From positions 1-64,000 of the forward strand of contig JAFSAO010000014.1 of assembly GCA_017440935.1 (NCBI GenBank): a DNA stretch of 64,000 bases, in the 5' to 3' direction. Position 1 is the stretch's first letter. Every line of letters starts with the position of its first letter. The DNA comes from Opitutales bacterium. GTDB taxonomy: Bacteria > Verrucomicrobiota > Verrucomicrobiia > Opitutales > UBA953. The notes under the pieces are model-generated. The model had not been told where the DNA came from. It ran no database searches and was given only the letters and a program-made list of their open reading frames with translations. Shown piece by piece: positions 11,181 to 58,751 of this stretch. The position numbers and the translations under genes are program-made.

Positions 11181-13316
11181 TTAGTTCTCCGGCGGAATAA
11201 GATTGTCCGCAGCCGCGGGCGGCGCGCTGATGTTCGGGATAATTCCCGAGCGGTTGAAGGTCAGCGCGTGCATGGAATCGATGAAATCCTGCCGGATGCG
11301 GAAAATGCAGTTCGCGGCGGGAGCGCCGGCGATTTGCGTGGTTCCGCCGAGGCGGCGTGTCAGATAATACGTGAGCGTTTCCGTTTTGCCGGGTGTGGAT
11401 TTCGCGCCGTCGGCGAGCAAGACGTTGACTTCGAGCTTGTAGCGCCACGGCTCGGGCGAATTCATTCCGAGATAGCTCGTGTCCTTGAAGTTGAGCGAGA
11501 ACGGAACGGGCAGGAACGATTCGGCGACAACGTTTTCCGTGGAGCGGAGCAACTTCGCAAGCGTTTGCGCGTAAGGTTCCGGATTGTCTTCGAGTGATTC
11601 CGACCAGTTTTCGGTATCGCTCGGAGATTTTTCTTCAAGCAGAAGTGTTTCTTTTCCGTTTGTGATTTCAAAAATCTTAAACGACGTAACTTTCCCCCCG
11701 GCGGGAAGGGCATAAACGGTGCGGTTGCGGAAGAACGACGGATGCAAATCAAGGGCGGAAAGGATTTCCGGCGTGATTGAGTAAATTGCCGTTCCCGTCT
11801 GTGCGTGCATCGGCGTGTCTTTTTCCGCAGAGGGCGCAATGGTTAGCGTTTGCGTGTAGGTTTTTCCGTCGGGAGGCGTAAATTCGAGTTCAACGGTGCG
11901 CAACGGCGTGTTGAGCTTCATGTTGACAATGTCTTCCGGCGTTGCGATATCGGCGACAAACGCTTCGCAAAGGCGGCGCTGCGCCGCGGAAAAATCGGAG
12001 TTGTCCGCACCGGGTGCGCGCGTCGCACGAAGATTGCGCAAACGCTGAACCAAATCGGCAATGACTTTCGGTTCGACATCGGTTGCTTCCGTGACGCTCG
12101 AACCGGGCGCGACGGGCATTTGCCATGCGTTGTAAAGCGGGTTTGCCGCTGCACCGGATTCCGCGGTGAGGATGTCCGGGCGCGGTTCCGCGATTGCGCC
12201 GATCGGCGTTTCCTGCGTTTGTGTTTCTGCGGGAACGGTTTCCGCACGCGTGATGTTCAAACGGTGCAAAACGAGGGATTTGTTCCCGTCGCGAATCGTG
12301 ATTCCGGAAAGATTTGCGGGATTAAATTGGAGGAAGAACGGATCTCGCAGGTCGCGTGCGGCGGTTTTCCACGCGTTGACGGTTTCTGCGGGAACGGTGA
12401 AAATTGCCGGATTGTCCTCGAGTTTCGCAAAAAGCGTTTTTCCGGAATTGTCGGTCGGATCCGGATTCCCGACAAGAAGCGTGCGGCTTCGGTTTGCGGC
12501 TTCGAGTGTGAAGCGCAACGCGGGGATTTTCAGCCCGGAAGCATCGTCCGGCGCGGCGTCGCCGGAAACAAAACGCACATAGGGAAGCGAGGAAAGTTCG
12601 CCGAGACGTTTTTCCACGAGTTGCGTGTTGGCGTCGGCGGCAACCGGAGTTTCAAAACGCCATGCGGAGGATTCCGTGTTCCCGCGGGAGCGCACGAGCC
12701 CGACGCGTTGCTCGCTTCCGCCCGAAAACGCCGTGCGAACCGTTACGGCACGCACTTCGTAGGGGCGCATCGCAAAAACTTCGCGCGCGCGGAGTTCGTT
12801 CGGCGTTTGCGAAATGGCGTTGAGCAGGGAAATCGGTGCGGGAATGATGTATTTCCCGTCGGGAGAAAGCACGTAAACGCTACGTCCGTCCGGTGTCGTT
12901 TTCCCGACGTGGAGAGTGTGCGTTCCCCCGAGGTCTTTTACGGTTACGGTCGCCGCGGGTTTTTCCAAACCGTAGCTCGAAAGTGTATTGCCCGCTCCCG
13001 CAACTTCTTCCACGGAGAACCCGAGGCTGTTGTCCAGAAAACGAAGTTCGGACAACAGGCGATTGACGGCGAATGCGTCGGCGCGCCAACTGAACGGTTT
13101 TTCCAAAAACCAATCGCGTTCCCGCCGTTCAAGCGAGAACGAGGTGTCGGCATTGGCAGCGGTGACGGAAACGTCGGAAATATCTGCGGCGAAGAGCGAT
13201 TGTGCGGAAATTTCCGTTTCGGCGTTCCCGCCGGCGTTTTCCCAAATGAGCCCGAACGTAATCAGGTTCGCGATAATCAGTAAAAGTGTAAGTTTAAAGC
13301 GCATCGTCTTTTTCAA
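11181..13316 (-). CDS. DUF4340 protein of the Gld-type exporter cluster
   Basis: A 711-residue envelope protein with one N-terminal membrane helix (about residues 6-24) and a long periplasmic region. The first 200 residues carry the DUF4340 pattern: RRERDWFLEKPFSWRADAFAVNRLLSEL, YGLEKPAATVTV and LHVGKTTPDGRSVYV. DUF4340 proteins typically accompany GldF/GldG-type ABC exporters, and that is the arrangement here: it is the last gene of the set starting at 16770. A palindromic repeat element separates it from the GldG gene. The molecular function is unknown. Confidence 0.8.
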   Translation of the reverse strand: MKKTMRFKLTLLLIIANLITFGLIWENAGGNAETEISAQSLFAADISDVSVTAANADTSFSLERRERDWFLEKPFSWRADAFAVNRLLSELRFLDNSLGFSVEEVAGAGNTLSSYGLEKPAATVTVKDLGGTHTLHVGKTTPDGRSVYVLSPDGKYIIPAPISLLNAISQTPNELRAREVFAMRPYEVRAVTVRTAFSGGSEQRVGLVRSRGNTESSAWRFETPVAADANTQLVEKRLGELSSLPYVRFVSGDAAPDDASGLKIPALRFTLEAANRSRTLLVGNPDPTDNSGKTLFAKLEDNPAIFTVPAETVNAWKTAARDLRDPFFLQFNPANLSGITIRDGNKSLVLHRLNITRAETVPAETQTQETPIGAIAEPRPDILTAESGAAANPLYNAWQMPVAPGSSVTEATDVEPKVIADLVQRLRNLRATRAPGADNSDFSAAQRRLCEAFVADIATPEDIVNMKLNTPLRTVELEFTPPDGKTYTQTLTIAPSAEKDTPMHAQTGTAIYSITPEILSALDLHPSFFRNRTVYALPAGGKVTSFKIFEITNGKETLLLEEKSPSDTENWSESLEDNPEPYAQTLAKLLRSTENVVAESFLPVPFSLNFKDTSYLGMNSPEPWRYKLEVNVLLADGAKSTPGKTETLTYYLTRRLGGTTQIAGAPAANCIFRIRQDFIDSMHALTFNRSGIIPNISAPPAAADNLIPPEN

Positions 13317-13325
13317 TGAATAGGT

Positions 13326-13416
13326 AACAATGAATAATGAATGGTTGCGTGCTAAAGCTTTTGCCGAGGCAAAAGCTCGGAAGAAATTATCAAATATCCG
13401 TTATCCATTATCCGTC
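13326..13416. repeat. Composite palindromic element, type TTTTGCC core
   Basis: Outer arms AACAATGAATAATGAATGG (13326-13344) and ATCCGTTATCCATTATCCG (13396-13414) are imperfect inverted copies built from TTATCC/ATGAAT units. The centre is a hairpin AGCTTTTGCC-GAGGCAAAAGCT at 13356-13377. It lies inside an apparent operon, between the GldG-like and DUF4340 genes. Confidence 0.8.
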
Positions 13417-13418
13417 GG

Positions 13419-15017
13419 TTAGTTTCTCTTTCTCCAGGAATAAACGAGCAGGCCGAAAATGGCGAGACCGGCAGGGAAGAACATGAAGTTCCAGCCGACG
13501 TGGGCGAGATCCGGCGGCGTCGCTTTGAGGCGAAACTCGGAAATCGGGCGCGGCGGGATGTTCATCATTACATCGCGGTCGATGAGCCAATTGACGGTGT
13601 TGAGCAGGAACGGTTTGTTCCCGCCGTTTTCAAATTGCGCGTTGGTGGCAATGTCGCCCGTGCCGAGCACGACGAGGCGCCCGCCGGGAATACTCACTCC
13701 GAGGCGCGTTCCCGCCGTGCGTTCGGAAACGGCTCCGAGCGGAACGGGACCGTCTACGTCCCCGCGAATGATTTCGAACTTGTAGGGCGGCGTGCGGTAA
13801 TCGCGTTCGCCCCAACTTGTCGGTTCGCCGCTTTTTACGTTCGACGTGAAAAACAACGGCGAAACGGTGCGTGTCCGGTCTTCTTTCGCGCTCAAGTCTT
13901 CTTCGACGGTGCGGAATTGCGACGCGATAATCGGCAGGCTCAGCGCGGTGAGAATTTCTGCCGTTTTGTGCGTTTTTTCCGGGAAATTGCGCACTGCAAA
14001 ATTTCCGTCGGAAAGCAGGCAAAGCGGCGAGGTTTCGACGACAAAAACGTCCTGCAACAGCAAGCCCCAATCGAAGAATAAGTCTTCCAGCCCGCAATCG
14101 GTTCCCGGTCCGATCATGGCGAGAATGCGTCCGTTGCGTTCCCGCAGGTAGCGCGAAAGTTTTTCCTCCGTTTGGCGGGAAATCGGAATGCGCGGATCGG
14201 CGATGATGATGAGCGACGCGTCCGCCGGGACGTCCGGAAGAACGGAAAGATCAAGCGTTTGCGTGCGGATGTGGCGGGAACGCAGAGTTTGTGCAAAAGA
14301 GGAAAGCCCGTAACCGCGATTGCTGCTGTCGATGCTCAATTCTCCGCTTCCGGAAAGGAAGTAGGCGATGGGCGAAGCTCCGTCCGTTACGCTGAGAATG
14401 GCGGACATAATTGCTTCCTCGCCGCGAAAACCGTCAATAATCGGCTCGGCACCGCGTTCGCCCGGACGCAGTTTCAACAGTTCGTCGGAGGTAATCGTGC
14501 GGCAGTTGTTCCCGCAGAGCACGACAATCGCCGTGTTTTGCGGAAGCGTCCCGAACTTTTCGAGTTCTCGGTTCAGGCGCGTGTTTTTTACTAAGTCTGC
14601 CGTTTCAAAACGAATCCAATCCGGACGGCGCGTTTGCAGCGCTTCGTATTTGAAATCGTCCACCAAACGCGAAATTTGCTTGTGTAAAAGCGCGAGCGCC
14701 GATGCCTGTTCCGGCGGCGTTCCCGCGACCGGTTGTTGCAACGTCACAATGAGGCGCACCCAGGGATTTTCTTCCGAAATGTTGTCCGGCGCTTTTTTCG
14801 CGAGTTCGTTCAGTTGCGCCCGCGTTTCCGGCCAAATGCCGTGGCGGTTTTCAAAATCCAAATCCCAACGCTTATAATAAGTGGGCAAAGAGGCGAGGTA
14901 ATTCAGTCCGAAGAGCAACGCCAGCGCGAGCAACGCTTGCGCAAGGCGGTTGAGCCTGCCGAGGAAGCGCACACCGCGAAAATCTTTCAGCGAAAACAGG
15001 GAAGGTTTTTTAGTCAT
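13419..15017 (-). CDS. gldG: GldG-like ABC exporter auxiliary protein
   Basis: A 532-residue protein with an N-terminal membrane helix (about residues 24-45), a large extracytoplasmic domain and a C-terminal helix (about residues 508-526) ending in basic residues. It resembles the GldG / ABC-transporter auxiliary domain: VTDGASPIAYFLSGSGE, ASLIIIADPRIPISRQTEEKLSRYL and GGRLVVLGTGDIATNAQF. It is encoded 5 nt after the permease gene. In Bacteroidota GldA-GldF-GldG support gliding; relatives outside that phylum probably act in envelope transport, and no motility role should be assumed here. Confidence 0.8.
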   Translation of the reverse strand: MTKKPSLFSLKDFRGVRFLGRLNRLAQALLALALLFGLNYLASLPTYYKRWDLDFENRHGIWPETRAQLNELAKKAPDNISEENPWVRLIVTLQQPVAGTPPEQASALALLHKQISRLVDDFKYEALQTRRPDWIRFETADLVKNTRLNRELEKFGTLPQNTAIVVLCGNNCRTITSDELLKLRPGERGAEPIIDGFRGEEAIMSAILSVTDGASPIAYFLSGSGELSIDSSNRGYGLSSFAQTLRSRHIRTQTLDLSVLPDVPADASLIIIADPRIPISRQTEEKLSRYLRERNGRILAMIGPGTDCGLEDLFFDWGLLLQDVFVVETSPLCLLSDGNFAVRNFPEKTHKTAEILTALSLPIIASQFRTVEEDLSAKEDRTRTVSPLFFTSNVKSGEPTSWGERDYRTPPYKFEIIRGDVDGPVPLGAVSERTAGTRLGVSIPGGRLVVLGTGDIATNAQFENGGNKPFLLNTVNWLIDRDVMMNIPPRPISEFRLKATPPDLAHVGWNFMFFPAGLAIFGLLVYSWRKRN

Positions 15018-15022
15018 GGCGT

Positions 15023-15790
15023 TTACGCTTTCGATTCGATGTTGATTGCCGTGAGTCCGAGCGCGAGCAAAGTCCCGCTCGTAAACAGGAAGAACGGGCG
15101 TGTGTCAATCAGCCCGCGGGAAAAGTTTTCCAAATGGCGGAATGTTGAAAGATAATCGACCAAATCCCGCAAGCCGGAAAGCGATTCATAGTTTTCCAAC
15201 GGCAAAAGTTGGAGCACGCCGCCGGAGACGACGAGAATGAAAAGAATACAGCTCGAAAGCAATCCCGCGACGAGCATTGAGCGCGTCAGCGAACTCGCCA
15301 AGATTCCGACCGCGATGTAAAGCAAGCCGCTCAGCGCAACAAAAATCGCGCCGCCGAGCAACGAACCCGCCGCCAAAAGCCGCGGATCCGGATAAAGATC
15401 TTTCAGCATGAACCACGCCGAAATCGGAAACGCGAGCGCCAGCCCCCACAGAAAAATGTAGAGCGCGTATGCGGCGAAAAATTTCCCGAGAACGATGGAG
15501 AGCGCACTTGTCGGCGTCGTCATCAGCGCACCGAGCGTTCCCGTGCGCCGTTCTTCCGCAAAAGAGCGCATCGTAATTAACGGGACAAGAATCAGCAACG
15601 GCACGAAAAACAGTTGGAAATAAACTTCTACCGGAAGAGCGTCGCCGAGCGCGCCGACCGCCGAGCGTTGCAGCGCGAGCCAGTAAAGCCCGCCCATCAG
15701 CGCGAGAAAAATCGTTCCCGCGACGTAAGTCGCCGGGGAAATGAACAAAATGCGCAACTCGTATTTGAAAATGGTCAGAAAGTGTTTCAT
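15023..15790 (-). CDS. gldF: ABC-2 type permease, GldF-like
   Basis: A 255-residue membrane protein with about six helices. The start IFKYELRILFISPATYVAGTIFL and the segment MRSFAEERRTGTLGALMTTP are characteristic of ABC-2 permeases of the GldF group. Its start codon overlaps the stop of the ATPase gene by 4 nt, indicating translational coupling; the GldG-like gene follows after 5 nt. Confidence 0.88.
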   Translation of the reverse strand: MKHFLTIFKYELRILFISPATYVAGTIFLALMGGLYWLALQRSAVGALGDALPVEVYFQLFFVPLLILVPLITMRSFAEERRTGTLGALMTTPTSALSIVLGKFFAAYALYIFLWGLALAFPISAWFMLKDLYPDPRLLAAGSLLGGAIFVALSGLLYIAVGILASSLTRSMLVAGLLSSCILFILVVSGGVLQLLPLENYESLSGLRDLVDYLSTFRHLENFSRGLIDTRPFFLFTSGTLLALGLTAINIESKA

Positions 15791-16770
15791 TCCTTGATGT
15801 CGTAACTGCGTTTGGTTGCTGCGATGAAAATATCTTCGAGGCTCGGGCGCTTTTCACGAAATTCGCGCACCTTAAATCCGGCGCCGACGAGGGCGGCGAC
15901 AACGTTTTCCGACGAAAATTCGCGGTCGGCGGGAACGGTTGCGTCCCAGATCTTTAATTCGGAATCTTCTCTCTGCGTTTCTGCGGGAACGAGTTTTTCC
16001 GCGCCGAGAATTTCCGAAACTTTTTCCTCCGGGGCGTTCGTTTCCACGGAAAACGTGCGCGAGAGAATGAACTCGCGGCGCAGTTCCGCCGGCGTTCCCG
16101 AGGCGACGATGCGTCCGCCGTTGATGATAATCACGCGGTCGCACACGTTTTCGATTTCCGGCAAAATATGGCTGGAAATCAGCACCGCCTTGCGTTCCCG
16201 TAGCGAGCGAATCAGCGCGCGAATGCCGAGAATCTGGTGCGGGTCGAGCCCGATGGTCGGTTCGTCCAAAATGATGACGTCCGGTTCGGACAAAAGCGCA
16301 TCTGCGATGCCGACGCGCTGGCGAAAGCCTTTGGAAAGCGTCCCGATGAGTTTGCGCCGAGCCTTGCGCGCAAGATCGCAAGCTCTCATGACGGCTTCCA
16401 CACGTTCCGAAATTTTTTTGCGCGGCACGTTTTTCAGTTTCGCGCGCCAGCGCAAATATTCGATAACGCGCAATTCTTCCGGAAGCGGATTGTTTTCGGG
16501 CATATAGCCCAAATGCCGCTTTGCTCCGAGCGATTCCGTCGCTACGGGAACGCCGCAGAGGCTGGCGTTTCCGCTGTCCGCCTGTGTCAGCCCGGCGAGA
16601 ATGCGCATCGTGGTCGATTTCCCGGCGCCGTTCGGACCGAGAAACCCGACGATTTCGCCCGGCATCACGGTAAACGAAACGTCGGCGACGGCGCGGTAGT
16701 TGCCGAACGTTTTATTGAGATGATTCACCTCAATCGCGGGAACGGCGGAAACTTCGGAGTCGGCGGACAT
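15787..16770 (-). CDS. gldA: ABC transporter ATP-binding protein, GldA-like
   Basis: A 327-residue ATPase with Walker A GPNGAGKST, a YMPENNPL Q-loop region, the signature LSKGFRQR, Walker B VIILDEP and an ISSHILPEIE switch histidine. The roughly 90-residue C-terminal extension is common in drug/polysaccharide-type ABC-2 ATPases. It is the first of the gldA-gldF-gldG-DUF4340 set, preceded on the same strand by the TPR protein gene. A short TTTTAAC/TTTAAG repeat-like stretch lies at 16776-16810. Confidence 0.92.
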   Translation of the reverse strand: MSADSEVSAVPAIEVNHLNKTFGNYRAVADVSFTVMPGEIVGFLGPNGAGKSTTMRILAGLTQADSGNASLCGVPVATESLGAKRHLGYMPENNPLPEELRVIEYLRWRAKLKNVPRKKISERVEAVMRACDLARKARRKLIGTLSKGFRQRVGIADALLSEPDVIILDEPTIGLDPHQILGIRALIRSLRERKAVLISSHILPEIENVCDRVIIINGGRIVASGTPAELRREFILSRTFSVETNAPEEKVSEILGAEKLVPAETQREDSELKIWDATVPADREFSSENVVAALVGAGFKVREFREKRPSLEDIFIAATKRSYDIKE

Positions 16771-16826: not shown

Positions 16827-17546
16827 TTAGTTGCCCGTCGCGAGCTTCGGTTCGATGGCGATAAGTGTGCGCTTGCGGGCTTGCCAGAAATTCGTCGGTT
16901 CGAGCGAGCGATCCATTTCGTTGATCCAAAGGCGCGCCTCGTCGAGATTCCCGGCGGTGACGGCGGAAACGGCGAGTTCATACATCGCCTGCCCGCGGTA
17001 GAGCGGGTCTGCAGCGGGCGTTCCCGCGAGTTTTTTCAGAGATTCTTTTGCCGATGCGAGATTTTCCGGCGTTCCCGTGCGAGCGAGCGCCGCGGCGGAC
17101 GCGATTACGGCGCGATTTTGCATCGCGTTAAATTCTTCTTTCCCGGCGAAAACGCGTGCGGCGTTCGCAAACGCATCGGCGGCTTCCGCGTATTTCCCGT
17201 TGTTCGCAAATTCCGTTCCGACTGCGAAATACGCCGTTCCCGCGATGGGTTCGGATTCGTTGGCTTTCGCGAATGCGAGTTTCTGCTCCGGCGTTTCCGT
17301 TGCCGCGTATTCCGCCTGCAACGCTGCAACGCGCATTTTGCCGACTTGGACGTAGACAATCGCGGCGATAATTGCAAGAAAGAGCGTTACGCCGGCGGCA
17401 ATGGTGCGCTTTCCGTGGCGCTGCCAAAAAAGCCAAACGCGATCTTCAAAATCCGCATCCTGAAAGTCTTCGTCAACAAGCACGAGGTTGCGGTCATCTC
17501 CCGCAGTTTTCTTTTGAGAAAAACGATTTTTCATCTGATTCGACAT
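16827..17546 (-). CDS. Membrane-anchored tetratricopeptide protein
   Basis: A 239-residue protein with a charged cytoplasmic N-terminus (about 45 residues, with WLFWQRHGKR just before the helix), one membrane segment (about residues 49-68) and an alanine-rich helical region with TPR-like pairs (YFAVGTEFANNGKYAEAADAF). The topology is like that of YfgM-type proteins, but I would not assign that function. It lies 56 nt upstream of the GldA-like gene on the same strand. Confidence 0.7.
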   Translation of the reverse strand: MSNQMKNRFSQKKTAGDDRNLVLVDEDFQDADFEDRVWLFWQRHGKRTIAAGVTLFLAIIAAIVYVQVGKMRVAALQAEYAATETPEQKLAFAKANESEPIAGTAYFAVGTEFANNGKYAEAADAFANAARVFAGKEEFNAMQNRAVIASAAALARTGTPENLASAKESLKKLAGTPAADPLYRGQAMYELAVSAVTAGNLDEARLWINEMDRSLEPTNFWQARKRTLIAIEPKLATGN

Positions 17547-17631: not shown

Positions 17632-17769
17632 CTCCAAGTATCACGCATCATGCACCAAATGAATACTTCAAAGTTTTTGCTTTCGGCAAAAACATCGGTA
17701 ATAGCCGATTTCTCGTTTCCGGTTACAGATTACTGATTTGCCTGAGGCTCAATGCCTGATGCATTGAGC
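17632..17769. repeat. Composite palindromic element overlapping a gene end
   Basis: The core hairpin GTTTTTGC-TTTCG-GCAAAAAC is at 17673-17693. The left flank holds degenerate AAGTATCA/GCATCA units (17634-17656). The right flank holds the exact palindrome GCTCAATGC-CTGAT-GCATTGAGC at 17747-17769, which codes for the last residues of the gene at 17730-18791. The element therefore appears to extend into, or to have supplied, that gene's 3' end. The gap 17547-17729 otherwise contains nothing recognisable. Confidence 0.7.
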
Positions 17770-18791
17770 TTGCTGACAAATCCTGCCGCATCCTCCGGGA
17801 AAAACCACGCGTAGAGCCTGCCGCCGTCGGGAATTTCGAGAGATTGGCGGTGTTGCGCGGCGACGGTTACGGCGAAATATTTGTCTGCTGTTCTGAATTG
17901 CCGATAAAACAGATGCCCGTCGTAGAAAATTTCCCCCGCGTTGCTATCGTCGGATTTTTCCAACTCAAAAAAGTTTTCCTCCGGCGGGAAGGTGTCGATG
18001 TGAAAAATTTCCGGCGGAAGAAAAATTTCGATGTCCGCACCTTCGGGAACGCTTTCCGTCGTGTTCCCGCAAAGTTTCCCGCGAATTTGCGTTCCCGTGG
18101 AAAGTTCCGCGAAAAATTCGCCCGCTCCCGCTCCGAGAAGCGTTCCCGAAAAGGTGTTTTCGGAAAGAATCGTTTCTCCGAATTTCGCAAGACGCAACTT
18201 GCGCGCCACGCAAAGCGCCTCCGGCGCGGCTTCCGCGTCCGCCGGAGTGCAAACGATGCTTTCGCTCAAATCCGGCTCGCCGTCGGAATTTACTTTCGGG
18301 AAAAACGCGAGCAAGTCCGCCTTGCGCGCCGTAAGATAGCTCGCGCATTCAACAATGACGGCGAAATTTCCCCGCACCGCGCGTTCCCGCAACTCGTCGA
18401 AAAGCGAGCACGCACCGAGCATTTCCGTGGAAACGACGAGCGCCGCGCCCTCCGGTTTCGCTGCGCACGCGGCGGCAAGCGCCACGCACCGCGAATCCGT
18501 TTCCTCCGTGAGCGTCTGCGGAGCCGTTTCGCCGTTCGTTTCTCCGAACCAAAATTCCAATTCGTTTGCAATGCGTTCCCGTGCGATTTCCCACGGCGTT
18601 CCCGCCGCCGCAAGCGGAGCGGAAATGTTTTCAAAAACCGTTTTTCGCGGCGAAATATCGACGTCCGAAACCGGAAACGCTCCGACATTTCGCCAAACGC
18701 GTGCCGGCAAACGGCTTTGCGGAAGTGCGATGATTTTTCCGCGCACGGCAAATACTTTTTCAAAAAAATCTTGGGCGGTTTTTAAAATCAT
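17730..18791 (-). CDS. Degenerate ABC-ATPase-like protein without catalytic motifs
   Basis: A 353-residue protein with no intact known motif, but it aligns along its length with sugar/polyamine-type ABC ATPases. VRGKIIALPQSRLPARVWRN (residues 16-35), then PRKTVFENISAPL (48-60), matches the region from beta-strand 3 through the Q-loop. LTEETDSR (94-101) sits at the LSGGQ signature, ALVVSTE (117-123) at Walker B, and VECAS (147-151) at the switch histidine. The start codon falls where Walker A would just have ended, and an in-frame TAG lies about 16 nt upstream. The C-terminal half resembles a TOBE-like beta domain. It cannot hydrolyse ATP in the normal way. It starts 15 nt after the M16 peptidase gene. 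It could be a structural pseudo-ATPase or a decaying gene, but a 353-codon open frame argues for retention. Confidence 0.6.
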   Translation of the reverse strand: MILKTAQDFFEKVFAVRGKIIALPQSRLPARVWRNVGAFPVSDVDISPRKTVFENISAPLAAAGTPWEIARERIANELEFWFGETNGETAPQTLTEETDSRCVALAAACAAKPEGAALVVSTEMLGACSLFDELRERAVRGNFAVIVECASYLTARKADLLAFFPKVNSDGEPDLSESIVCTPADAEAAPEALCVARKLRLAKFGETILSENTFSGTLLGAGAGEFFAELSTGTQIRGKLCGNTTESVPEGADIEIFLPPEIFHIDTFPPEENFFELEKSDDSNAGEIFYDGHLFYRQFRTADKYFAVTVAAQHRQSLEIPDGGRLYAWFFPEDAAGFVSKLNASGIEPQANQ

Positions 18792-18806: not shown

Positions 18807-21374
18807 CTATTTTACAATGAGCGCGAGCGATTTTTCCGCCGCGAGAATTTCCGTGGCAAAGCGGGCGACATCGTCTGCCGTGAGCGCACCGAGCCGCGCT
18901 TCCGTTTCCGCGTCGCGGTTCACGGGCAAGCCGTAAAGCGCGTTGAGCGCGGCGTTCCCGCAACGCGAAGCCGCGCGCTGGCGAGCCGTGCGCTGCGCGA
19001 CGCAAATGCGCGTTTTCGCGCCGGCGAGTTCTTCTGCGGAGATTTTCCCCGCGCGCAGGCGGTCAAGTTCGCGGCGCATTTCATCGAGCACGATCTGCGC
19101 TTTCTCTTTCTCCGTTCCCGCGTAAAGGAAAAACATTCCCGTGCGCGGCGACCCGATGCGACTTGCGCCGACGAAGTAAGCGAGCCCTCGTTTTTCGCGG
19201 ATTTCGAGAAAAAGCCGACTCGACATTCCGCTGAGCAATTCGTCCGCAAGCGTCCCGACCCAATAACGTTCGTCGCAAAATCCGAAATCGGGAAATGCGA
19301 GTTGGACAATCGCCTGTTCTGCGGGAACGGGTGGCGCGATTTCGATTTCGCACGATTTTTGTGCGGAAAAATCACGAAACGCTTTGGCGAAATCTTCCGC
19401 GGGAACGCGCGCGCAATTTGCGAAGCGCGCGGGCGAAAACTGTTTTTCGAGTTCGGACAAAAGCGCGTCGCGGTCAAATTCTCCCGACGCGGCGATGACG
19501 ATGTTTTCCGGCACGGCGAGCTTGGCGTGAAGCGCGCGAATATCGTCGAGCGTCAGCGCTTCGAGCGCTTCTTCCGTCCCGAAGTTGTGCGCTCCGAGCG
19601 GATGCGCGCCGAAAAATTTTTCCCGCAGGGCGATGCGAGCGAATTCTTCGATTTCGTCAAATTCGCTTCGCAGGGCAGCGAGCTGTGTGGCGCGTTCCCG
19701 CGCGAAATTTTCTTCGGAAAAACGCGGAGCGCAAATTGCGTCGGCGAGAATTTCGCAGGAAAGATTTTCGTCGCCGGAAAGCGTTTCCGCAAAAAGTGCA
19801 AACGTGTTGTTGCCGGAGATTTCGTCAAAACGCCCGCCGACGGATTCGATTTTTTCGGCAATTTCCGCCGCGCTGCGTGTTCCCGCGTCGAGCGTCATTA
19901 GCGTGGAAAGCAGGGCGGTTGCTCCGCGCGTTTTTTCCGATTCAAATGCGCCGCCGCCGAGCATTGACGCGCGCAAGTGCACTTTCGGAAGTCCGGAAAC
20001 GGGTTGGAGCAAAACGCGGATTCCGCAGGCGAGGCGCGTTTCTTCAAACGGCGGGAACGCGTGCATCGTGCCTGCGTTTTCGGCGGACGCGCTCGCGGAA
20101 ACTTTTTTTCGCGCAGGCGTTTTTTCGAGTGCGGAAGTTGTTACGCATTCTTCGCGCAAATATTTTTGCGCTACGCGTTGAATATCTTCCGGCGTGAGAG
20201 CATTGATTTTTTCGAGGAAAATTTTGGTCGCCGCCGGGTCGCCGCGTTCGACACATTCCGCTCCGAGACGCGCCGCAGAGGACGCCGCCGTGCCGAGCGA
20301 ATTGACGAGTCCGACAACGGCCTGACGCGAGGCTTTTTTCAGAAGCGCGGGAGCGACGCCTTCGCGAGCGACTCGGGCGAGCGTTTCGCGAATCGCCGCT
20401 TCCGTTTTTTCGCGGTCGCCGAGTTCCGCCGCGTAATTTATCCAGAAAAGCCCGATGTCGTTCGGTGTCCACGCCGAAACGTCGAGCGCGTGAGCGATTC
20501 CGCGCTTCTCGTGAAGTTCCTGCCAGAGCAGGGAGGAGTCGCCCTTGCCGAGGAGCGAGGCGAGCACGGAAAGTGCGGGCGTATCTTCGTGGGCAACGCC
20601 GGGGATTTTCCAAAGCATATTTCCGCGCAGGATTTTGACGTTCCCGTGAAGCGTGATTTCTCGCGGTGCAAGTTGCGGCGGTTCGGCGGGAATGAAGATT
20701 TCCGGAGACGGGCGCGCGGGAGCGGCCGAAAAATATTTTTCCGAAAGGGCGAAAACGGTTTCCGCGTCGATGTCTCCGGCGACAACGAGCGCGATATTGG
20801 CGGGAACGTATCTTTTTTCAAAATACGCATGAAGTTCCCGGTCGGTCATTTGCGAGAAAACGGGCTTGTAGCCGATGACGGGAACGCGATAAGGGTGGAC
20901 GCGAAACGCCGCTTCGAGCGTTGCGTCGGAAAGTCGCGAGTCCGGGTCGTCGGCGCACATATCGATTTCGCGGAGAATTACGTCTTTTTCGCGTGCGGCG
21001 TCGAGCGCGTCGAGGCGCGGTTTCAGCGTGAGTTGGGCGAGCGTTTCAAACGCGGTTTCGGCGGCTTCTGCGGGAACGTCGATGTAGTAAACCGTGCGGG
21101 AAAATGTCGTGTAGGCGTTGATGTTGCCGCCGACGGCTTGGACACGGCGCGTGATTTCCTCGGCGGAAAATTTTTCCGTGCCTTTAAACACCATGTGTTC
21201 AAGATAATGCGAAAGCCCACCGCCGAGAAATTCGGCTTCGTGGATGCTTCCGGTTTTGACCCAGACCTGAACGGAAACCAAGCCCGACGGGAGCGTTTTC
21301 CGGAAAAACGCGGGAACGCCGTTGGCGAGTTTTACGTTTTGCGGAAGCGAAGAAAATGTATCTGAAATGTTCAT
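18807..21374 (-). CDS. M16-family zinc peptidase, fused two-half form
   Basis: An 855-residue peptidase of the insulinase / mitochondrial-processing-peptidase family. The inverted zinc motif HYLEH is in GLSHYLEHMVFKGTE (about residues 55-70), with the distal glutamate expected about 76 residues later. The C-terminal half (from about residue 425) repeats the fold without the zinc motif (RASMLGGGAFESEKTRGATALL), and the family's RGLAYFVGAS segment is near residue 730. No signal peptide is evident. The MFS transporter gene is 27 nt upstream and the degenerate ABC protein 15 nt downstream, so the three are probably co-transcribed. Confidence 0.92.
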   Translation of the reverse strand: MNISDTFSSLPQNVKLANGVPAFFRKTLPSGLVSVQVWVKTGSIHEAEFLGGGLSHYLEHMVFKGTEKFSAEEITRRVQAVGGNINAYTTFSRTVYYIDVPAEAAETAFETLAQLTLKPRLDALDAAREKDVILREIDMCADDPDSRLSDATLEAAFRVHPYRVPVIGYKPVFSQMTDRELHAYFEKRYVPANIALVVAGDIDAETVFALSEKYFSAAPARPSPEIFIPAEPPQLAPREITLHGNVKILRGNMLWKIPGVAHEDTPALSVLASLLGKGDSSLLWQELHEKRGIAHALDVSAWTPNDIGLFWINYAAELGDREKTEAAIRETLARVAREGVAPALLKKASRQAVVGLVNSLGTAASSAARLGAECVERGDPAATKIFLEKINALTPEDIQRVAQKYLREECVTTSALEKTPARKKVSASASAENAGTMHAFPPFEETRLACGIRVLLQPVSGLPKVHLRASMLGGGAFESEKTRGATALLSTLMTLDAGTRSAAEIAEKIESVGGRFDEISGNNTFALFAETLSGDENLSCEILADAICAPRFSEENFARERATQLAALRSEFDEIEEFARIALREKFFGAHPLGAHNFGTEEALEALTLDDIRALHAKLAVPENIVIAASGEFDRDALLSELEKQFSPARFANCARVPAEDFAKAFRDFSAQKSCEIEIAPPVPAEQAIVQLAFPDFGFCDERYWVGTLADELLSGMSSRLFLEIREKRGLAYFVGASRIGSPRTGMFFLYAGTEKEKAQIVLDEMRRELDRLRAGKISAEELAGAKTRICVAQRTARQRAASRCGNAALNALYGLPVNRDAETEARLGALTADDVARFATEILAAEKSLALIVK

Positions 21375-22855: not shown

Positions 22856-22987
22856 TTAGGCTTGTTCGACGGTGATATTCGGCGTGCCGTTCCCGTAGTG
22901 GTAAACACTCGGACCGCCGCACGCGGCGAGAGCCAGCGTTCCCGCGAGAGCAAACAGGGCGAGGGCGATTTTTGCGAATTTACGCAT
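22856..22987 (-). CDS. Small lipoprotein, 43 residues
   Basis: The peptide begins MRKFAKIALALFALAGTLAL and then reads AACGG: a classic lipoprotein signal with the lipobox LAAC. The predicted mature part is only about 20 residues. Its ATG overlaps the end of the upstream gene (ATGCGTAA, 8 nt shared), so translation is probably coupled. A longer in-frame reading from further upstream would only add out-of-frame neighbour sequence and is not favoured. The function is unknown. Confidence 0.65.
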   Translation of the reverse strand: MRKFAKIALALFALAGTLALAACGGPSVYHYGNGTPNITVEQA

Positions 22988-23765
22988 TTGCGGATTCTCC
23001 TTCGTTGCCGCCGATGGTTTTCTTGCCGAATGCGGCGACGGATTTGAAGAGCGCGTCAAAGAATGCGGCAACCGTCGTGTTCAGGCTGAGAAGTTCGCTG
23101 TTCGTGAGGTCGATCGTGTCGCCCGCTTTGAACGCGCGGCGCGTGTCGGCGAGGCGCACTTCCGGGCGTTCGCCTTCCTTGGCGGGCTGAATCGTTTGGA
23201 CCGTTTTGAATTCAAAAACGAGTTCACCGTCGTCGTCCACGTCCTGCGCGGTAACGACGCCGTTGTTTTGCATCAGCGCACGGAGCGCGATAGCCATGCT
23301 CGTTACTCCGTCTTCGAGTTCGCAGAGAATGCCGAATTCTTTTTCAAAAACTTCAAATTTGTCTTGAAGCGCGGAGTTGACGAAGGCTTCCTGCTTGCGC
23401 CCGACGAGTTCGTTCGTCGCTTTCGGGTCTGCGTCCATCGCCTTTTTGTTGGCGAAAAGCGTGCAGAGCAGGTGGCAGTTGTCCATGCACGCGGCAATCA
23501 TCGAAAGCAGGTCGTTAATCGACTGTCGGAGCATCAGTCCGTGCGCGAACGCCTTCATTTGGTCGAAATCGCGGTGAAGCTGTGCGACCGGCATCATTTT
23601 CGTGAGCGAGGAAAAATGATTGTATTTTTCCGCGTCAACGGACTGCGTTCCCGCGAGGTTGAACGCGAGCAGGTCAAAGTGGCGTTGAAGCGCACCGAAG
23701 AAATTTTGGGCGATTACCGGAAGGCTAATCGTTTGCTGTCTGGGTTGTTCGTTGTTTTCGGACAT
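22980..23765 (-). CDS. Hypothetical protein, predominantly helical
   Basis: A 261-residue soluble protein I do not recognise. There is no signal peptide or membrane segment. The N-terminal 190 residues look helical with several cysteines (AACMDNCHLLCTLF around residues 90-103). A short acidic turn DVDDDGELVFEF and a KTVQTI strand follow, then an amphipathic C-terminus. Codon use and the normal-looking frame support a real gene. The lipoprotein overlapping its 3' end suggests a shared envelope-related role. Confidence 0.6.
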   Translation of the reverse strand: MSENNEQPRQQTISLPVIAQNFFGALQRHFDLLAFNLAGTQSVDAEKYNHFSSLTKMMPVAQLHRDFDQMKAFAHGLMLRQSINDLLSMIAACMDNCHLLCTLFANKKAMDADPKATNELVGRKQEAFVNSALQDKFEVFEKEFGILCELEDGVTSMAIALRALMQNNGVVTAQDVDDDGELVFEFKTVQTIQPAKEGERPEVRLADTRRAFKAGDTIDLTNSELLSLNTTVAAFFDALFKSVAAFGKKTIGGNEGESANA

Positions 23766-24176: not shown

Positions 24177-24878
24177 ATGAAAAAATATATCACGGTTGCG
24201 GCTCTTCTCGCCGCAGGAACTGCGTTGGCTAACGCAACGACGGAGTCTTTTGACCCTGTTATCAAAAGTGCGACGGTTGTATTGTCGCTCGATGTAGAGG
24301 CTCTTGGGGCGATTTCCGATGTGAGTTTTGACGGGGCTGGGGAGGTCTACTCTTTGCTTAAGTTTAATGGGACATGGCATGATGATAACACGGGCTGGAT
24401 CGGACTTGTGAACAATGGTTCATCCACTACTGATAAGACAGGTCTTTACGCGACGTGGGGATATGGCGAACAAAGTAAAACGAACCATGATATTGGACTC
24501 GGAGGAATTTTCACGTCTGATACAAACTGGAGTAATATTTCGGATATCGCGTTAGTGTATTCTTTCAATACGCCGGATTCTGGAGCCACGACGACGAATA
24601 TTGCCCTCGCTATTGGCTATCTCGACGGAACTGAAGCTGCTGTTTTTTCCGCGAGCAAAAGTGATCTTATGTTTAATAGTAATTCCGGATTTGCCGCAAA
24701 TTCGCTTGAAATTAACGATACGTATGCGTCGAGCTACACACTTACCACCAACAACTTTATTAGTTTAGACGACGCTAAAGCAGCGGCTCTTGCTGCTGTT
24801 CCTGAGCCGTCGGCGTTCGGATTGCTCGCAGGGCTCGGCGCACTTGCGCTCGTGGCGTCGCGTCGCCGCCGCAAATAA
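24177..24878 (+). CDS. PEP-CTERM sorting-domain protein
   Basis: A 233-residue secreted protein. A signal peptide (about residues 1-20, ALANATT cleavage region) precedes a threonine/serine/asparagine-rich domain. The C-terminus is a textbook PEP-CTERM signal: VPEPSAFGLLAGLGALAL followed by a basic tail VASRRRRK. Exosortases cleave such tails and attach proteins to the outer surface or exopolysaccharide matrix. The gene stands alone, and its base use is more AT-rich with none of the CGGGAAC words so frequent in its neighbours. The EpsI-type gene at 704 may belong to the same sorting system. A terminator follows. The function of the mature domain is unknown. Confidence 0.9.
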   Translation: MKKYITVAALLAAGTALANATTESFDPVIKSATVVLSLDVEALGAISDVSFDGAGEVYSLLKFNGTWHDDNTGWIGLVNNGSSTTDKTGLYATWGYGEQSKTNHDIGLGGIFTSDTNWSNISDIALVYSFNTPDSGATTTNIALAIGYLDGTEAAVFSASKSDLMFNSNSGFAANSLEINDTYASSYTLTTNNFISLDDAKAAALAAVPEPSAFGLLAGLGALALVASRRRRK

Positions 24879-57338: not shown

Positions 57339-58751
57339 TTAAATTTCGATTTTGTAGGTGGCGAGAAGCGAGAGGAATTCGAGGTCGTGAGTGATGAGCA
57401 AAACCGTGTTCCCGCGCGCGGCGTAGTCGCGAAGCATGGCGGCGATGATGCGCATATTGCGTCCGTCGAGTCCGCTGGTCGGCTCGTCAAGCACGAGCAG
57501 GGACGGTTTTTTCATCAAAACGGATGCGATGACGAGGCGTTGTTTTTCGCCGCCGGAAAGGGATTGCGGATGGCGTTCCCGTTTGTCGGAAAGTCCGATT
57601 TCGTCGAGCAGCGCGAGGGCTTCGCGCTCGGCATCTTTTCGGGAAAGCGGCGAAGACGAAACGAGTTCTTCAAGAACGGTGCGCATGTAAAGTTGGATGT
57701 CCGTGTTCTGCATGACGAATCCGCCGTCGTCGAGTAGTTGCGCGGCTTTCGCGGGAGCTTCGTTTTTCAAAATGATTCCGCCGTTTTTTCGGGGAAGTTT
57801 TAAAAGTCCGGTAATGATTTTTGCAAAAGTTGTTTTGCCTGCTCCGTTTTTTCCGACGACGGCTGTGATTGCGCCCCGCGGGATGCGGAAATCGCGGGAA
57901 CCGTCGAAAATTTCCTTTTCGGAATTCGGGTATTTGAAAACGATTTTCTCGCAATGAAGCGCGGCGGGAGCATCGGCGGGGATTTCGGCAAGCGGCGGAT
58001 CCGCGGGAACGCGAACTTTGCGAAGCCCGAGCGCGTGCTCGCTTTCGACGGAATCGAGTTCGGTGAGCGCGTTCCCGTCGGCGCGTTCGATGCGGCGCAC
58101 GATTTTTCCTTCGTTTAAAATCAGGATTTTGTCGGGAACGCCGTCGAGCCAGTAAATGCGGTGATCTACGATAACAATGGTGAAACCGTCGCGTTTGAGT
58201 TCGCGGCAAAGCGCGGCAAGTTCTTCCGTTGCTTCCGGGGAGAGATTTGCCGTTGGTTCGTCAAAAACAAGAATGCGCGGTTGCATCGCGACGGCGGAGG
58301 CGATGACGGTTTTTTGCTTTTCGCCGGAAGAAAGCCCGAAAAGACTGCGGGAACGTAAGTGTTTGAGTCCGAGACGTTCGATTGCCGCGTCCGTGCGGCG
58401 TAAAATTTCTTCGCGAGAATCGAGGCGCCATTCGAGGCTTCCCGCGATGTCGCTCTCGACGGTCATAGCGAGAAACTGACTGTCGGGATTTTGGAAAACG
58501 GACCCGACCTGCGCGGAAACTTCGGCGAGGCTTTCCGGTTCGCGCCCGGCGATTTTGACGCTTCCGCGAAGTTCTCCGCGAAAGTGAAAAGGAATCAGTC
58601 CGTTGAGCACGCGCAGAAGCGTGGATTTTCCGCAACCGGACGGTCCGGAAATCAAAATCGCTTCGCCTTCGCCGAGCGAAAATGAAATATCCGTCAGCGC
58701 ATCTTTTTGCGCGAACGGGTAGCGGTAGGAAAGTTTTTCAACAGAAATCAT
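57339..58751 (-). CDS. ECF transporter ATPase, two ATPase domains fused
   Basis: 470 residues with two complete ABC ATPase domains in one chain, equivalent to EcfA and EcfA'. Domain 1: Walker A GPSGCGKST, signature LSSGEKQK, Walker B ILVFDEP. Domain 2 (from about residue 250): Walker A GKNGAGKTT, signature LSGGEKQR, Walker B LLVLDEP. It powers import together with the T and S components encoded next to it. The start lies 18 nt after the EcfT stop. Confidence 0.92.
   Translation of the reverse strand: MISVEKLSYRYPFAQKDALTDISFSLGEGEAILISGPSGCGKSTLLRVLNGLIPFHFRGELRGSVKIAGREPESLAEVSAQVGSVFQNPDSQFLAMTVESDIAGSLEWRLDSREEILRRTDAAIERLGLKHLRSRSLFGLSSGEKQKTVIASAVAMQPRILVFDEPTANLSPEATEELAALCRELKRDGFTIVIVDHRIYWLDGVPDKILILNEGKIVRRIERADGNALTELDSVESEHALGLRKVRVPADPPLAEIPADAPAALHCEKIVFKYPNSEKEIFDGSRDFRIPRGAITAVVGKNGAGKTTFAKIITGLLKLPRKNGGIILKNEAPAKAAQLLDDGGFVMQNTDIQLYMRTVLEELVSSSPLSRKDAEREALALLDEIGLSDKRERHPQSLSGGEKQRLVIASVLMKKPSLLVLDEPTSGLDGRNMRIIAAMLRDYAARGNTVLLITHDLEFLSLLATYKIEI

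Follow-up and report, generated by a model that had tools for sequence, protein, structure and literature searches.

The question raised by this locus is what a protein is kept for when it follows the order of an ABC ATPase and holds none of the nucleotide-binding motifs. The window, i.e., the whole stretch of 64,000 nucleotides of Opitutales DNA that was analysed, carries the gene on its minus strand. The frame of 353 open codons given in a preliminary description was confirmed, and the motif order given there was borne out with the P-loop absent. The parts of the gene were assigned as follows.

17730..18791, minus strand: pseudo-ATPase gene, an open frame of 353 aa (stop codon included)
18177..18791, minus strand: NBD relic, residues 1-205, beginning after or inside the lost P-loop; ABC fold with AF2 pLDDT mostly 75-94 and profile matches to PotA, CysA, and MetN
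18543..18638, minus strand: best conserved NBD segment, residues 52-83 (VFENISAPLAAAGTPWEIARERI..EL.FWFG), an invariant alignment block
18489..18512, minus strand: former signature motif LTEETDSR, residues 94-101 (motif table)
18423..18443, minus strand: former Walker B, GAALVVSTEMLG (ALVVSTE, residues 117-123; motif table)
18339..18353, minus strand: former switch (H-loop) position VECAS, residues 147-151 (motif table)
17733..18158, minus strand: TOBE domain, residues 212-353, from the alignment with intact relatives and the TOBE tree

The single 353-aa sequence had no Pfam match at E<=1, and its NCBIfam matches were weak but collinear, i.e., PotA at residues 47-127 (E=0.012) and FtsE at residues 30-114. 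A profile was then built from five orthologues of the window genus, g1. Searched against the PDB, it matched the CysA-like ATPase 1z47 (E=5e-8), PotA (E=2e-6), MetN, and FtsE over residues ~32-196, and profile-profile comparison aligned the NBD relic with intact relatives at E=2.7e-8. In the AF2 model made from five sequences, most ten-residue blocks of the NBD had pLDDT 75-94, and the succession of helices and strands was that of an ABC domain. PotA and MalK were the best Foldseek neighbours of this model (E ~1e-10; Z ~13, 3.1-3.7 A over 170-180 residues); FbpC ranked lower and CysA was also matched. Because of these profile matches and structural neighbours, the protein is an ABC ATPase by descent with no nucleotide-binding motif left, a relic of the MalK/PotA/FbpC type, and the ABC fold order first read from the sequence stands. 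The relic had also been called alignable throughout. That wording calls for two amendments: the ABC domain lacks its N-terminal strands and P-loop altogether, a loss of ~45 residues from its start, and residues ~165-211 are added sequence without a clear counterpart. With no Pfam match, the gene family is overlooked by standard annotation.

The C-terminus, described earlier as TOBE-like, aligned with the TOBE_2 domain of intact relatives at E=2.4e-23 in profile-profile comparison, and PF08402 was above cut-off in two of these relatives, L010 and L022. The AF2 model of the TOBE domain alone (five sequences) reached pLDDT 45, so the assignment of this fold rests on sequence.

An intact ATPase concealed by a misplaced start codon, or by a sequencing or assembly error, has practically no chance of being the explanation. 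The frame does open just 5 codons ahead of the ATG, right behind another gene, as such an artefact would have it. However, the P-loop, Q-loop, signature, Walker B, and switch His were all lost in five g1 genomes (motif table), the loss is seen in seven genomes, and the motif positions themselves are substituted. The former Q-loop position of the window protein reads FPVSDVDIS; in the other g1 orthologues, different letters, no more canonical, stand at the Q-loop, signature, Walker B, and switch positions. No Walker A or P-loop-like sequence was found in any frame 300-900 nt upstream in the seven genomes. A start-codon error is therefore ruled out, and the pseudo-ATPase assignment survives the search for Walker motifs upstream of its orthologues.

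The full relic was found in five of the eight g1 species. The orthologues come from an Opitutales MAG from water deer (L001, 79% identity), Candidatus Spyradosoma merdigallinarum (L002), and an Opitutales MAG from sheep rectum and a Verrucomicrobia MAG (L003, L004). Two species, G001 and G006, encode the TOBE domain alone as a protein of 121-122 aa, the ABC part being missing altogether. The gene is entirely gone from G004 (97% complete) and from several genomes of g2 and g4. Most genomes are metagenome assemblies, those of g1 being 90-98% complete. No plasmid match was obtained.

Across the order, the intact Fbp/Pot-type ATPase gene adjoins a gene for a ~545-aa SBP_bac_6 binding protein, and a double-domain permease is encoded elsewhere. 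The family of the window, f1, has two ATPase copies. In part of g2 and g5, copy (b) adjoins binding protein and permease. Copy (a), which has a GAGEF-type TOBE, is separated from both in all but G009 (g3), which retains it next to the binding protein. All motifs are intact in 17/17 outgroups of the order, in G009, and in 21/21 g2 copies of (a). The g4 copies of (a) have the switch His changed in 8/8 and the signature altered in most, and they are probably intermediates that would bind ATP and be poor at hydrolysis. At the level of single loci, L013, L014, L015, L018, L023, L025, L026, and L027 of g4 have lost the switch histidine and kept the P-loop, and several g4 signatures read LSASE, LSESE, LSDSE, or MCASE.

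The transport partners were judged by sequence search. Fbp-type permease and binding protein were absent from 8/8 g1 genomes and, apart from weak matches to other permeases, from 9/9 g4 genomes. No TOBE_2-bearing ATPase above cut-off was found in any g1 genome. Eleven g2 genomes still carry copy (a) without a matching permease or binding protein; L010, L011, L012, L029, and others, from about 11 g2 genomes, are such motif-intact MalK/FbpC-type orphan ATPases. A partner permease elsewhere in the genome was also considered for G008 in a non-exhaustive search and rejected. The Fbp type was absent, three of the four other permease sites had their own ATPase, and the fourth held a pair of the oligopeptide type, with an ATPase partially matched at the edge of the locus.

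In the TOBE tree, which rests on few columns, relics and TOBE-only proteins of g1 cluster in a single clade (100/99) within copy (a). The placement of the relic rests on this tree because the eroded g4 copies are scattered on long branches in the full-length tree. Copy (b) is weakly placed, beside G077 in the full tree (83/71) and beside other outgroups in the TOBE tree, and may have arisen by duplication within the family or by transfer. The ATPase subunit of an Fbp/Pot-type importer, i.e., the system with the double-domain permease and SBP_bac_6, is the ancestor of the relic.

The distribution of constraint between the two domains differs between transporter and orphan copies. In transporter ATPases, the TOBE/NBD distance ratio of sister pairs had a median of 2.77 (10 pairs, range 2.1-3.6), whereas in the motif-intact copy (a) it was 1.00 (10 pairs, range 0.4-1.9). 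The comparison of transporters with motif-intact orphans gave disjoint ranges and p=9e-5 (10 v 10 sister pairs). The ratio was 0.86 in g4 and 0.66 in g1, with relics spanning 0.4-0.9. In the eight species that have both copies, the NBD was better kept in (b) in 26/28 pairs and the TOBE domain in (a) in 28/28, these 28 paralogue pairs sharing species and hence not being independent. Constraint thus shifted ahead of motif loss. Since the shift is already present in motif-intact orphans, the TOBE domain was what the orphan copy lived by at a time when the ATPase still appeared to work.

Selection on the relic was estimated as dN/dS by the Nei-Gojobori method for two close pairs. The value was 0.31 overall for G000-G005 (NBD remnant 0.36, TOBE 0.25) and 0.16 for G003-G007 (0.19 and 0.11), and wider pairs gave 0.46-0.51 for the NBD against 0.23-0.29 for the TOBE domain. 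The synonymous excess was significant in both domains of both close pairs (p=3e-5 to 6e-9). Amino-acid change differed between NBD and TOBE in the wider pairs (p 9e-5, 6e-8), with no significant difference in the close ones (G000-G005 p=0.82, the other p=0.12). Neither stops nor frameshifts were found in seven species, and an intact frame arose in neutral simulation in 0.9% of cases for G000-G005 and 8% for G003-G007. The 353-aa relic is under purifying selection. The expectation that it is a retained pseudo-ATPase is supported by its ABC fold, its presence in five of eight g1 species plus two TOBE-only ones, and dN/dS across orthologues below 1. Nevertheless, it is the loosest gene of its block, since the five downstream genes had dN/dS of 0.004-0.11, several times below. 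Given these several-fold lower neighbours and the loss in G004, its function is weakly constrained and dispensable.

The genes around the relic were compared across g1, and three neighbours are relevant.

18807..21374, minus strand: M16 peptidase (PF00675/PF05193); adjacency not conserved
16827..17546, minus strand: TPR protein, the downstream neighbour kept in G000, G003, G005, and G007
11181..16770, minus strand: block of ABC ATPase, permease, GldG-like, and DUF4340-like genes, downstream of the relic in four g1 genomes

The M16 gene ends exactly 15 nt upstream of the relic, as reported in the preliminary description, which also looked to M16 peptidase and AmpG-like MFS genes as a conserved neighbourhood. 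That neighbourhood failed to hold: M16 adjoins the gene in G000 only, being missing there in G005, G003, G007, and G002, and an MFS gene lies near the relic or TOBE gene solely in G000 and G001. An operon with these two genes was rejected for this reason. The Gld-type block is located elsewhere in G001 and G006. Among the outgroup loci inspected, G081 alone has an intact Fbp-type ATPase gene beside a Gld-type ABC block (L053 8610-13102, the ATPase gene being divergent), so synteny was not used as proof of orthology. Neighbouring genes are too poorly conserved to name a pathway. Other genes were also observed in the window. A 261-aa protein at 22980-23765 (minus strand) has no Pfam or NCBIfam match, and in G001 (L035) its orthologue is flanked by the TOBE-only and MFS genes. 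A small exported protein with a PEP-CTERM-like C-terminus (VPEPSAFGLLAGLGALALVASRRRRK) is encoded at 24177-24878 (plus strand), and one 476-aa open frame with two ABC NBD matches at 57369-58745 (minus strand).

The TOBE domain of g1 retained 22 ancestral residues from intact relatives and fixed 13 derived ones. The derived residues are common to six or seven of the seven g1 proteins and most are hydrophobic. The arginine that is invariant in copy (a) elsewhere, i.e., the former RPE arginine, is replaced in g1. Together with this replacement, F257, I262, F274, L277, F330, F331, and F338 suggest a new hydrophobic surface.

Of the explanations considered, we favour a binding or regulatory module centred on the TOBE domain and working outside transport, with the NBD body as a passive, tolerated remnant; its probability comes close to an even chance. 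The importer permease and binding protein are gone from the window genus, and the selected function would sit in the TOBE domain, apart from transport. Most likely, the new hydrophobic residues would let this domain bind a protein partner, or self-assemble, instead of packing on the old NBD, which, where still present, may passively help to fold or space the TOBE domain. The TOBE tail seems useful by itself because only the tail remains in sister species, and a regulatory role of the relic is plausible. A broader account is possible, although held more tentatively, in which a regulatory domain escaped from its enzyme when two importer-ATPase copies divided their jobs in one gut Opitutales family. 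One copy would have kept the ATPase for transport and the other the job of the TOBE domain. The latter copy would have shed the constraint on its NBD first, the motifs next, and finally the NBD as a whole, its TOBE domain meanwhile acquiring a new conserved surface.

The main rival is slow pseudogenisation, in which the gene has no function that matters, is lost piecemeal, and shows apparent constraint as weak residual selection. We consider it unlikely, but it stays alive because dN/dS is loose, the highest of the block, and because the gene was lost in G004 and elsewhere, i.e., several g2 and g4 genomes; the loss of length and motifs and the truncation to TOBE in G001 and G006 also fit decay. 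Against it stand the synonymous excess in both domains of two independent recent pairs, the open frames in seven species with the low frequencies of neutral simulation, and thirteen newly fixed TOBE residues common across the genus. The preliminary description suggested that the protein is perhaps a scaffold or regulatory subunit. Such a subunit would dock on a permease or a functional ABC ATPase by the kept helical subdomain. The retained ABC fold agrees with this, as does the invariant block at residues 52-83, which is the start of the helical subdomain, aligned to ENVAFGL... of intact ATPases. That start presumably sits next to where importer ATPases such as MalK grip the coupling helix of the permease, and the position before the TPR gene and ABC-2 transporter block is kept in four genomes. 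Such a role for the ABC part is not supported and is improbable: G001 and G006 have no NBD, with the block also located elsewhere in them, and g1 has no matching permease or binding protein and no TOBE_2-bearing ATPase above cut-off. Still less probable is a stand-alone ligand store or sensor like Mop/Tub/ModG, with TOBE oligomers binding an oxyanion or another small ligand. TOBE-only orthologues of 121-122 aa do exist, and known single-TOBE proteins bind tungstate or molybdate at subunit interfaces (PMC11980592). However, the domain of the relatives is of the TOBE_2 type and not Mop, and the derived residues are mainly hydrophobic. PF03459 (Mop-type TOBE) did not match the relic or TOBE-only proteins, which are generally too diverged for Pfam.

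If the two copies did divide their jobs, TOBE in Fbp/Pot-type ATPases would perform a selectable function by itself. In this gene, an ABC ATPase has turned into a non-enzyme with each stage of the conversion present in extant relatives, i.e., working transporter, motif-intact orphan, eroded orphan, motif-less relic, bare TOBE, and loss. These stages are a natural experiment on the role of TOBE beyond ATP hydrolysis, which is hard to probe in working transporters. No description of an ABC importer ATPase reduced stepwise to its TOBE domain was found in the literature searched, which included few subscription journals.

The relic shares with MalK/PotA/FbpC/PhnT-type ATPases (PF00005 + PF08402) its descent, the secondary-structure order of the NBD, and the C-terminal TOBE domain, whereas P-loop, signature, Walker B, switch His, cognate permease, and binding protein are lacking. 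In ABC exporters (ABCC, TmrAB, TAP), degenerate sites continue to bind ATP and are partnered by a functional NBD (PMC7756269). Like them, the relic is an NBD without catalytic residues that is yet kept by selection; unlike them, it has its P-loop deleted and no transporter. A pairing of degenerate and catalytic NBD was not found here, as the protein has no membrane domain and g1 has no matching permease or TOBE_2 ATPase above cut-off. The single-domain TOBE proteins Mop/Tub/ModG, which bind tungstate or molybdate (PMC11980592), resemble the G001 and G006 proteins in having TOBE without an ATPase, but the g1 proteins are a TOBE_2 lineage from an importer ATPase within one family and have no Mop-type match. 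The closing comparison is with MalK itself, in which an importer-ATPase C-terminal domain likewise has a regulatory role separate from ATP hydrolysis. The C-terminal regulatory domain of MalK acts on MalT and EIIA-Glc. The ATPase of MalK stays active, whereas in the relic the regulatory half would outlive the ATPase.
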